The notes under the pieces were generated by a model. That model saw nothing but the letters and a program-made list of their open reading frames with translations. It ran no database searches and was not told the DNA's origin. A stretch of DNA of 64,000 nt from Planctomycetia bacterium (GTDB lineage Bacteria; Planctomycetota; Phycisphaerae; UBA1845; UTPLA1): NCBI GenBank assembly GCA_015200345.1, contig CP054187.1, positions 3,084,470 to 3,148,469 of the forward strand. The letters are read 5' to 3'. This document shows positions 29,803 to 39,932 of this stretch, piece by piece. The stretch's first letter is position 1; every line of letters begins with the position of its first letter. The position numbers and the translations under genes were made by a program.

Positions 29803-29910
29803 CTAAGTGAAGCCGAGATGAGCATTTACCTGCGGAACAGGCGTCTCGCCTGTGATTCACCCGCCGCGGCGGGTGCCACACCCTGTGAATCATTCTGCGG
29901 CTCCACTTAG
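29803..29910. repeat. MITE-like palindromic element, copy 1
   Basis: A 108-bp element whose ends are CTAAGTGAAGCCG and, on the other strand, CTAAGTGGAGCCG. Nearly the whole element is one imperfect palindrome, with inner hairpins ACAGGCG/CGCCTGT and CACCCGCCG/CGGCGGGTG. A second copy, about 90 percent identical by hand alignment, lies at 39503-39609. Both copies have TA just inside an outer C (left) and G (right), consistent with TA duplication at a CTAG target as in IS630-type transposition. The right border supplies the TAA stop of the adjacent minus-strand gene. Confidence 0.8.
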
Positions 29911-32900
29911 GGCAGCAGAAGGTCCACGAATGGCGGGATATCCGCTTCGGTGACCAGCCCGTCGCCCGTCAGATCGCCGGCGCAATAGGCCACTCCAGGT
30001 TGTCCGTCTCCCATGAGCAATTGCACGAACGCAGCGATGTCCAATCCGGTTACCGAATCATCGCCGTCAATATCACCGCTGCCGGTTGCGAAGACGGTGA
30101 CTTGAACGACGGCGCTCATCTCGGCACCGCACGCGCCAGTGACAACGCATTCGTAGTCGGCGGCTGTATCACCGGCCGTGGCGGGATTGATGGTCAAGGT
30201 GTCGGTGTCGGCGCCGGCGATGTTTCCGCCGTTCTGAATCGGCTCGCCGTTGCGCATCCATTGGAACGTCAGCGGCCCATCGCCGGTCGTGCTGGCGACG
30301 AGTTGGACGCTTGCACCGGCGCATGCAAGCGACTGTTCTGGTGCAACATCGACGGTCACGGGCGTCAACAAGTCGAGGGTCGCGGACGCGCTGATGAGGC
30401 TTCCGCAGGGGTTTGTAATCTCCACGTCGTAGTCGCCGGCATCGGCGGCGGTCACGGGATTCAGGACGAGCGCCGGCCCATGTTCGCCGGGAATGTTGAC
30501 GCCGCCCTTGCGCCATTTGTAGGACAACGGAGCCATGCCGATCGCCGTGACATTGAATTGCACGGAATCGCCCTCGCAGGCCGCGCTGCTCTGCGGCTGC
30601 TGCGTGATCGCGGGACCGGTTGAGGCCGGCTCGCAGGCGTCAAGAACACCGTTGGCGTTGCAATCGTGATCGCCGTAGGCAGTCGGACCGGTGATGCGAA
30701 GCTGGAACTCACCGGCGGACGTGCTCCATCCGGTGACGCGAATCCAATAGGCGGAGCCGGCCGTTACGTTGAGCGTGACTTGAGAACCGGAGCCGCCGCC
30801 GCAAAAGTCGTCGTCGCACACAAGTTCGTTCACCGTCGTTCCGGGGCAGCCGTCGTGAACGGACAGGATGCTGTCGTAGGTGCTGCCGCAAAGCGAGATC
30901 GTGGCCGCGCCATTGGATGCGGGGTCGTAGCGGAACCAGAGATCAGGCGGGGTCGCGCCGGTCTGATTGCAGGTGTCCTCGCCGTTGCTGGCAGCGCCGA
31001 TGGTTGAGCCGGTGTAGGTCACACCGGGCAGGACGCGCATGGCTTGTGGGCAGTCGTCGGCGGCGATGACGCCGGCGGCCAGGTCGCACGAGTCGATGAC
31101 GTTGTTGGCGTCGCAGTCCTGACCGGCGATTTCGCAGAGATCGACTACGCCGTTGACGTCGCAGTCGGTTCCGCCCGGTTCGCAGGTGTCCACGATGTTG
31201 TTGTTGTTGCAGTCTCGCTCGGGGTGGTCGATCAGCTCACACGCGTCGATTACGGTGTTATGGTTGCAGTCGTTGCCTTCCAGTTCGCAGGCGTCCAGCG
31301 TGTTGTTGCCGTTGCAGTCGAGCGCGGGGTTGGCGGCCAGTTCGCACACGTCGAGCAACTGATTGCCGTTGCAGTCGTTTCCTTCCAACTCCGTGATGTC
31401 CTCGACCATGTTGCCGTTGCAGTCGACGCCGGAGGGATCGATCGTGGCGGAAAACATGCCGCGGCCATGGGTGATGGCAATGAGCGTGTTGCTGCCCTTG
31501 AAGACCAGCTCGTCGACGGCGACGTTGGCCGGTCCGTCGTTGGAGCTGGACCACGTCTCGCCGTAATCGGTGGAAGCGAAGACGCCGATATCGGTGCCGA
31601 CGTAGAGCCAGCCGAGCAGGGCGGGGTGTAATACAATTGTATCAACCGGCGCGCGCGGCAGCGTCTGCGGGTCGCCCGGCTGGCCGGGGCCGGTGATCTT
31701 CGTCCAATTCGTGCCGCCGTCGGTGGTCTTCCACAGGTTGTCGGCCTCGTAGCCGGAGAAGCCGACATAGACGCGGTCGTGATTCGACGGGTCGATGGCA
31801 ATGCGCTTGCAGGTGCGGTTGGGGAGTTCGGGTGTGTTGGTATCGACGCGCGTCCAAGTGGGGCTGGCGTCGGTTCCGTTGGTGGTCTTGTACACGTTCC
31901 CGTTGTTGTGCCCGACCCAGATCAGGTCGGAGTTGCCCACGGCGACGGCAATGGCCGAGACGTTGCTGCCGATGGACGGCTTGATGATGAACCAATCCGG
32001 CGGGGAGTTCTTGACGTTGTTTGATCGCCAGAGATTGGCCGCGCCGCCCAGCAGCCGATCCGAGTTGTTCGGGTCGAGGATGAACGGCGCGATGAAGTTG
32101 GCCGCGCCGCTGCTGGCGTCGGTGAGCGGATTGGGTCCGCCGGCATAAATGGAACTGGACGAAAGACCGGCATTGGTGCTGCGGTGGATGCGTAGATACA
32201 CGTACTCGCCGTAGAAGTAATTCGGGTCGTTCTGATCCGCCGCGCAAAACCCGCCGTCGCCGCCGAACATGGCGGTCCAATTGAAGGAACCTGCCGTGCG
32301 GAGCGTGCCGTTGTCCTGCGTGCCGCCGACCAGGACGCCGGTGCTGTTGTTGACCGCGCCGCCGTAGAACTGGGTGATGGCGAGATTGTTGTTGAGGGCG
32401 ATCCAGCCGGTCGTGCCGGCGACGGTGTAGACGTTGTCGGTGCGATAGATGCCGCCGTCGTTTCCGAAATAGACGGTGCGATTGGACGTGCCGTTGAAGC
32501 CCGGATGCTCGACGATGACATGATGGTCGGCGTGCGCCGAGAGCGGCGCGCTGGCCCACTGGCTGATGCGCGTGAGGCTGCTGCCGCCGTTCGTGCTGCG
32601 CCAGGCATCGGGCCCGCCGCCGAGGACGATGGTGTTCGAATTGGTCGGATCGACCCAGATGGCGTTGTCGTACCAGCCCTGATTGCCGAGATAATTCGTC
32701 CCGGTGTTGCGCAGGGTGTAACTCTGTCCGCCGTTGGTGGATCGCCAGACTTCGCCGCCGTTGCGGTTGACGCTGGCGTAGACGGTGTTCGGCGAACCGC
32801 GCGCGTAGGCGACTTCGACGCGGCCGCCGCCGGACGTAATTCCCTGGGCTGTTTGCCAGGTCACGCCGCCGTCGGTGGAGTAGATCGCTGTTCCGGCGTT

Positions 32901-33803
32901 CGTGCCGGCGACGGCGCGGTTGCCGTCGGTCGGGTGAAAGCGCACGTCGTTGGTGCGATCGGGGAAGACCTCGGTCCAGCTTGTGCCGCCGTTGGTGGTG
33001 CGGAAGATTTTCTGTTTCGTGGCGACGAGCATGATCTGATTGCTCGCCGGGCTGATGGCGATGCGATTGACGTAGCCCCACGGGTCCTGCGTCGGGTCGG
33101 GGTTGGTGGGGATGGTGCTGGGAATCTGCGCCCACGTGACGCCGCCGTCGACGGATTTGAGAATGCCTGCACCGGGCAGCGAGTCGATGTTGCCGAAGCC
33201 CTCGCCCGTGCCGGCGTAGAGCACATCCGGGTCGGTCGGGTCCAGCGCCATGCAGCCGATCGGCAACGACGGGAGGAAGTCATCCATGAAATCCCAATGC
33301 GCGCCGGCATTGGTGGTCTTCCACACGCCGCCCGCCACGCCGCCGACCCACATGATCTCCGGCGTGGTCGGATGAATGAGTATGGAGCGGATGCGTCCGC
33401 CGATGTTGCCGGGGCCAAGTTCCGTCCAGCTCATGCTGTCGATGCCGGCGTTACGCGGCGCGCCGGCGAGTGAGCGACGTTTGTCTTCCACCGCACGGAG
33501 CAGGGCGTTGGGCGGAATCTTTCCGTTCTCGCTCAATCGCTCGCGATAGCGGAATTCCATCGCCTCGCCCGGGTGATCGGGCCGCTCGCCGACGACCTTC
33601 TTCACGCGCGGAATGCGCAGCGGCAATGCGTGCCCGGTTGGGTTCGCCGGGGCGACCGAATCAGCCGTGGCGAGTCGGGCGTCGACCGCCGCCGGTCCGC
33701 TTGGATCGGCCGAGGGCGCGCGCAGCGCGGCGCAGCCGGTGAGCACGGCCGGGATGAGGGCGAGAAGGACGGCAAGGCGCGAATCGGCCGGTCGATTCAT
33801 CAT
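29907..33803 (-). CDS. Giant lipoprotein with sortilin/BNR-like propeller, Cys-rich calcium repeats, Ig-like domains and dockerin-like end
   Basis: A 1298-residue protein from the paired ATGs at 33798-33803. The signal peptide ends in lipobox LTGC near residue 22. Residues about 95-790 contain many BNR/VPS10-type blades (repeated GGVWKTTNAG, ILKSVDGGVTW, IFRTTNGGTSW, LWKTTDGGTNW). Then come about seven Asp/Asn-rich repeats of the type DCNGN-x3-D-x-CEL (about 805-935), like thrombospondin type 3 calcium repeats; a domain with DDFCGGGSGSQVTLNV; two Ig-like domains opening with QQPQSSAACEGDSVQF; and a dockerin-like tail (DIDGDDSVTGLD, DLTGDGLVTEAD). Probably a surface protein acting on or binding polymers. 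Its TAA stop lies inside a MITE-like element. Confidence 0.85.
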   Translation of the reverse strand: MMNRPADSRLAVLLALIPAVLTGCAALRAPSADPSGPAAVDARLATADSVAPANPTGHALPLRIPRVKKVVGERPDHPGEAMEFRYRERLSENGKIPPNALLRAVEDKRRSLAGAPRNAGIDSMSWTELGPGNIGGRIRSILIHPTTPEIMWVGGVAGGVWKTTNAGAHWDFMDDFLPSLPIGCMALDPTDPDVLYAGTGEGFGNIDSLPGAGILKSVDGGVTWAQIPSTIPTNPDPTQDPWGYVNRIAISPASNQIMLVATKQKIFRTTNGGTSWTEVFPDRTNDVRFHPTDGNRAVAGTNAGTAIYSTDGGVTWQTAQGITSGGGRVEVAYARGSPNTVYASVNRNGGEVWRSTNGGQSYTLRNTGTNYLGNQGWYDNAIWVDPTNSNTIVLGGGPDAWRSTNGGSSLTRISQWASAPLSAHADHHVIVEHPGFNGTSNRTVYFGNDGGIYRTDNVYTVAGTTGWIALNNNLAITQFYGGAVNNSTGVLVGGTQDNGTLRTAGSFNWTAMFGGDGGFCAADQNDPNYFYGEYVYLRIHRSTNAGLSSSSIYAGGPNPLTDASSGAANFIAPFILDPNNSDRLLGGAANLWRSNNVKNSPPDWFIIKPSIGSNVSAIAVAVGNSDLIWVGHNNGNVYKTTNGTDASPTWTRVDTNTPELPNRTCKRIAIDPSNHDRVYVGFSGYEADNLWKTTDGGTNWTKITGPGQPGDPQTLPRAPVDTIVLHPALLGWLYVGTDIGVFASTDYGETWSSSNDGPANVAVDELVFKGSNTLIAITHGRGMFSATIDPSGVDCNGNMVEDITELEGNDCNGNQLLDVCELAANPALDCNGNNTLDACELEGNDCNHNTVIDACELIDHPERDCNNNNIVDTCEPGGTDCDVNGVVDLCEIAGQDCDANNVIDSCDLAAGVIAADDCPQAMRVLPGVTYTGSTIGAASNGEDTCNQTGATPPDLWFRYDPASNGAATISLCGSTYDSILSVHDGCPGTTVNELVCDDDFCGGGSGSQVTLNVTAGSAYWIRVTGWSTSAGEFQLRITGPTAYGDHDCNANGVLDACEPASTGPAITQQPQSSAACEGDSVQFNVTAIGMAPLSYKWRKGGVNIPGEHGPALVLNPVTAADAGDYDVEITNPCGSLISASATLDLLTPVTVDVAPEQSLACAGASVQLVASTTGDGPLTFQWMRNGEPIQNGGNIAGADTDTLTINPATAGDTAADYECVVTGACGAEMSAVVQVTVFATGSGDIDGDDSVTGLDIAAFVQLLMGDGQPGVAYCAGDLTGDGLVTEADIPPFVDLLLP

Positions 33804-33913
33804 CGGTGGGGTCCTGGGGGTCGTGCGATGGTCGCGGAAGGTCCACTCCACCCGCGAGGCGATCTGTCTGAATTGTACCACGAAAGGCGTGTCGAACGGA
33901 CACCGCGGTCAAC

Positions 33914-39502: not shown

Positions 39503-39609
39503 CTAAGTGAAGCCGCCATGAGCATTCACCTGTGGCACCGGCGTCTCACCTGTGATTCGCCCGCCGCGGCGGGTGCCACACCGATGAATCATTCTGCGGC
39601 TCCACTTAG
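39503..39609. repeat. MITE-like palindromic element, copy 2
   Basis: A 107-bp second copy of the element at 29803-29910, in the same orientation relative to the adjacent minus-strand gene. Left end CTAAGTGAAGCCG and right end CGGCTCCACTTAG are identical to copy 1. Arms TGTGGCACC and GGTGCCACA extend the palindrome further inward than in copy 1. The right end provides the TAA stop of the groES-like gene. Confidence 0.8.
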
Positions 39610-39932
39610 CTTCCCGCCTTGCGAAAAACGGCGACCACGTCCTCGACCGGCACGACGTAGAGCTGATTGTCCCCCTCGAAATCGACCGGAATCGCGTGTT
39701 TCGGGTTGAACAGCACCTTGTCGTATTGCTTGATGGGATAATCGTTGTCGGCGGCGACTTGTGCCGAGATCGCGACGATCCGCCCGGTGATCGTCGGTAT
39801 CTCGATGTTGTCGGGCAACTGGATGCCGCCCTTGGTGGTCTTTTTGTCGGCGTCCTTGCGGATGAGCACCCGCTTGCCCATCGGCTCGACGGTTTCGAGT
39901 TTCACGCGCGAAGCGGCTTTGGCGTCACTCAT
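39606..39932 (-). CDS. groES: GroES-family co-chaperonin
   Basis: A 108-residue Cpn10 protein with the expected order: PMGKRVLIRKDADKKTTKGG (start of the barrel and mobile loop, where GG-I-L contacts GroEL), GRIVAIS, QYDKVLFNPKHAIPVDFEG, and the C-terminal strand VVPVEDVVAVF. It caps the GroEL folding chamber. groEL is not next to it; a ferritin-like gene lies upstream on the same strand, 36 nt away. The mobile loop is rather short of the usual hydrophobic IVL tripeptide (IQL here). The stop codon is part of the MITE-like element. Confidence 0.88.
   Translation of the reverse strand: MSDAKAASRVKLETVEPMGKRVLIRKDADKKTTKGGIQLPDNIEIPTITGRIVAISAQVAADNDYPIKQYDKVLFNPKHAIPVDFEGDNQLYVVPVEDVVAVFRKAGS

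Follow-up and report, generated by a model that had tools for sequence, protein, structure and literature searches.

The palindromic sequence at positions 29803 to 29910 of the window (the whole 64-kb stretch of DNA analysed here, positions 3,084,470–3,148,469 of a single 3.88-Mb contig) is very probably a MITE, a non-autonomous element derived from IS630 of the Tc1/mariner superfamily. It is 108 bp long, lacks a transposase gene, is bounded by terminal inverted repeats and occurs in many dispersed copies, all of which are features of MITEs. Below, G000 denotes the genome under study, G001 a genome of the same genus, and G002, G008 and G016 genomes of the same family. The features in the window are as follows.

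29803–29910, plus strand: MITE copy 1 (L001), 108 bp including the outer C and G and both TA dinucleotides; the empty site in G001 is CTAG
29803–29815, plus strand: left terminal inverted repeat CTAAGTGAAGCCG, in which the C and TA are target
29830–29880, plus strand: REP-like double-hairpin core of the TGTGG...CCACA type, which occurs without MITE ends in relatives
29858–29875, plus strand: second core hairpin CACCCGCCG/CGGCGGGTG
29898–29910, plus strand: right terminal inverted repeat CGGCTCCACTTAG, in which the TA and G are target
29907–33881, minus strand: 1324-aa open reading frame whose TAA stop (29907–29909) comes from the MITE edge; the G001 orthologue has TAG at the empty CTAG
39503–39609, plus strand: MITE copy 2 (L007), 107 bp; the empty site in G001 is CTAG
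39606–39932, minus strand: GroES-like gene of 108 aa whose TAA stop (39606–39608) comes from the MITE edge; the G001 orthologue has TAG

Both window copies are present with the ends that an earlier, sequence-only reading had quoted, and their identity of 90% agrees with its hand estimate of about 90 percent. That reading took the element to be present in two copies, which is wrong: a search of the whole genome places it at 26–27 positions, with 27 BLAST matches and, under a covariance model based on 18 copies, 26 listed places of which about 24 span the full 108 positions (the inventory is based on genome searches together with targeted stretches). The lowest full-length identity to copy 1 is 74%, which indicates an ageing family rather than a recent burst. 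The exact-end pattern has no match outside G000 in collections of genome contigs and viral contigs, since the ends differ from one genome to another; plasmids and phages searched with the element likewise gave no match.

Evidence for insertion comes from comparison with G001, in which the flanks of 16 copies were located at 78–95% identity. The orthologous site is readable for seven of the 16, the other nine having diverged or rearranged flanks. In five cases (L001, L005, L006, L007 and L009, thus including both window copies) the G001 site is empty and reads exactly CTAG, and the other two are empty sites departing from it by one base, CTAA for L016 and TTAG for L021. Each of the five clean sites has one TA when empty and two when filled, which is the pattern left by insertion of IS630/Tc1/mariner elements, as established for ISY100 of Synechocystis, a member of that group that inserts at TA and duplicates it (PMC2170065). 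The suggestion, made from the window alone, of insertion into CTAG with duplication of the TA is thus supported by the empty sites, and the TA directly inside the outer C and G is seen in both window copies as described. CTA...TAG is retained at both ends in 11 aligned copies, and other copies have changed bases there. For example, L009 reads ATAAGTG and has lost the outer C, although its empty site in G001 is CTAG; since the outer base has changed in a copy whose empty site has the C, the outer C belongs to the target and not to the element. IS630 prefers the TA of 5′-CTAG-3′ (Tenzen and Ohtsubo 1991, as cited in PMC2170065). We note also that IS630 elements of other subgroups in this order (L160, L161, L165, L175 and L176) have C/TA...TA/G borders and ends starting with GTG; CTAG targeting seems to be common in the order.

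Searches with DDE_3 and with transposases found no IS630 transposase or remnant in G000 or G001, and the unpaired TIR-like matches in G000 that we inspected as candidates for an autonomous copy are ordinary sequence. The expected IS630-type transposase, flanked by similar terminal repeats, is thus missing from G000 in these searches but present in related genomes of the same family. IS630 transposase is present in G002, G008, G014 (where it is decayed) and G016, and the IS630 copies of G008, G002 and G016 have ends that begin with CTAAGT, sit in CTAG, and agree with the right end of the MITE at 16–20 of 24 bases. IS630 copies lie at many contig ends in G008 (3′ ends CTAAGTAGAGCCGCAGAATCTTTCATG, 5′ ends CTAAGTAGCACCGCAGAATGATTCATT), and the family-consensus MITE right end CTAAGTGGAGCCGCAGAATGATTCATA matches the 3′ and the 5′ ends at 20 of 24 positions each, counted beyond the CTA; all ten of the G008 ends found via the protein are in a CTAG half-site. 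The corresponding values for G002 and G016 are 16–18 of 24. The MITE left end is less similar to the IS630 ends (only 8–14 of 24, ungapped), and for IS630 elements from the order's other subgroups the match to the MITE end is 0–7 of 23 positions. There are three complete IS630 copies in G002, 1173–1176 bp long, with ends CTAAGTAGAAACGCAAAATGATTTACC and CTAAGTAGAAACGCAGAATCC (the autonomous ends in this genome are also quoted as CTAAGTAGAAACGC), one of which, L209, has a single 363-aa frame with HTH and DDE_3 and matches IS630 in NCBIfam with an E value of 3.9e-69. Groups of the IS5 family, such as the IS427 type, likewise use TA or YTAR targets, and the target would therefore also suit an IS5-family element; we give this very little credence, however, because the MITE ends match elements that encode this IS630 transposase. 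In L211 and L213 of G002, and in L150 of G028, the IS630 reading frame is broken near an A-run that separates the HTH segment from the DDE segment, which may reflect either a sequencing error or programmed frameshifting. A scan with the G016 transposase returned records from Phycisphaerae and other planctomycete MAGs (e.g. CP030884 and JAJDEC010000642).

Elements of the same build, with CTAAGT...ACTTAG-type ends around a double-hairpin core, are found in G016, G014, G006, G015 and G001. There are more than 20 full-length MITE places in G016, a genome that carries both IS630 and MITEs, and their ends agree at 19 of 24 positions; the same private bases occur in the MITE end CTAAGTTGAAATGCAGAAT and in the IS630 end CTAAGTTGACCTGCAGAAT of that genome, which is what one would expect of a MITE that follows its own transposase. 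Such pairing of MITE and IS ends across genomes makes it possible to test directly which repeat is moved by which transposase. G008 contains an element of about 116 bp that has both IS ends and lacks the core, and which, from its sequence, looks like a simple internal deletion. The sister MITE of G001 is a single-copy element (L139/L179, G001:C1:1397663–1397790) that lies some 100 bp away from the L006 empty site; its core is different (ACCGGCTAATAGCCGGT / ACAGGCTATTAGCCTGT).

We propose that the parent belonged to an IS630 subgroup with ends CTA/AGT...ACT/TAG, and that an IS630 transposase acting in trans would have recognised ends of about 25 bp and inserted the element at the TA within CTAG, with duplication of that TA. 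The core would have been carried as cargo, being a separate double-hairpin repeat. The source of transposase has presumably since been lost from G000, whose approximately 25 copies would now be decaying. With neither transposase nor remnant found in G000 or G001, present mobility is impossible from the genome alone. MITEs can outlive their source transposase, and a resident source is thus common but not strictly defining for them.

Our literature search, whose coverage left out most subscription journals, found no description of a planctomycete MITE of this kind; the present family is an IS630 MITE in the planctomycete group with likely source elements in related genomes and a target backed by empty sites. 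Judged by description, the closest known kind is RUP, which the part of PMC3049150 consulted gives as a sequence of about 107 bp with many copies and IS630-Spn1-like terminal repeats, thought to be moved in trans; the likeness is in size, copy number and IS630-type ends. According to the same part of that account, RUP differs in being pneumococcal and AT-rich, with a base composition unlike that of the MITE, and in having a resident IS source where G000 has none, and it describes no placement that preserves stop codons, which is a feature of this MITE (PMC3049150). IS630 (Tenzen and Ohtsubo 1991, as cited in PMC2170065) is likened by target alone, having the same CTAG preference but being a full autonomous element, unlike the 108-bp MITE. 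The likeness to ISY100 is one of mechanism, since its transposase binds to the terminal repeats and insertion at TA duplicates that dinucleotide, although ISY100 too is autonomous (PMC2170065).

The core (element positions 28–78, about 50 bp) is a separate unit that is also found without MITE ends. It has 124 matches in G011, counted over both strands, with other flanks, and CTAAGT-type ends flank it in G000, G001, G006, G014, G015 and G016. The different repeated contexts of the G011 cores (L288–L297, L329–L368) number at least four or five, for example CGGCCTCACGCTCC/GGCAAACGTGA, GCGGCC..AACCAAAA/GTTTTCTTCGCG, CTGCGGGTT..AACCCGCAG and CCTATCCC..GGGATAGG. A preference for palindrome tips in that genome is unsupported (6 of 43, versus 6.8% for permuted flanks). 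Two cores in G000 are without IS630 ends, at G000:C1:2149313–2149416 (L027/L299) and 2376658–2376709 (L026), and neither has CTAG/TA borders; at both sites the core and some adjacent bases are absent in G001, which points to the gain or loss of a segment longer than the core. It is conceivable, though we regard it as rather doubtful, that the core is a module in its own right, one that inserts repeatedly into unrelated miniature elements or is captured by them. If so, it would be a repeat nested within others, either selfish or functional, and would have a mover of its own. That several miniature elements share the core prompts the question of how a second repeat comes to spread within them.

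A REP/BIME-type palindrome mobilised by a RAYT (REP-associated tyrosine transposase, Y1_Tnp) has to be considered, since the core looks like two inverted REPs and each of the 21 genomes searched, G000 included, encodes Y1_Tnp proteins. Against this, a search of the surroundings of 20 Y1_Tnp loci found no paired core motif, which leaves a RAYT unsupported as mover of the core, and for the element as a whole neither the CTAG empty sites, in which a single TA corresponds to two in the filled site, nor the match of the ends to IS630 fits such an origin; we consider it highly improbable for the whole element, though it may apply to the core. The GTAG/CGTC-tagged REPs, which are short palindromes that have been reported from the Planctomycetes-Verrucomicrobia group among others, resemble only the core and not the whole element (PMC3733652), and the core differs from them in having no adjoining RAYT gene and no GTAG or CGTC tag at its edge, the edges being TGTGG and CCACA in the copies read.

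The 13-bp terminal arms are complementary at 92%, and folding greatly exceeds that of shuffled sequences in strength, with a z of −4.9 for copy 1 as DNA and of −6.3 for copy 2 as RNA. The shape is not, as had been described, nearly one long imperfect hairpin, but a terminal stem closing on internal hairpins. The covariation term is +0.69, with double changes in one of 32 pairs; compensatory changes thus do not maintain the base pairs, and the palindrome has the look of a transposon, not of an RNA under selection. There is no match to Rfam over the part of the window searched. Although the strong hairpin and the location of six copies exactly on stop codons might recommend a conserved, non-mobile host structure at gene ends (a terminator or RNA element), that origin is refuted, with scarcely any probability left to it, by the absence of the element at orthologous G001 sites that read CTAG, the lack of compensatory pairing and the lack of an Rfam match. 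A secondary effect of the hairpin on transcript ends is possible.

The six copies concerned (L001, L005, L007, L009, L016 and L021) provide the stop of the neighbouring gene, as TAA, and the G001 genes end in TAG at the same codon in alignments read by hand. As the element begins with A, any insertion into a C/TAG stop gives C/TAA, and a gene hit there would keep its last amino acid and its stop. CTAG is strongly under-represented in the window (five observed, against 33 predicted by trinucleotide frequencies and 213 by base composition), and none of these five sites is a stop. Insertions are tolerated because there are few CTAG sites inside genes and TAG becomes TAA at stops, which shows how an element that targets CTAG can be nearly harmless.
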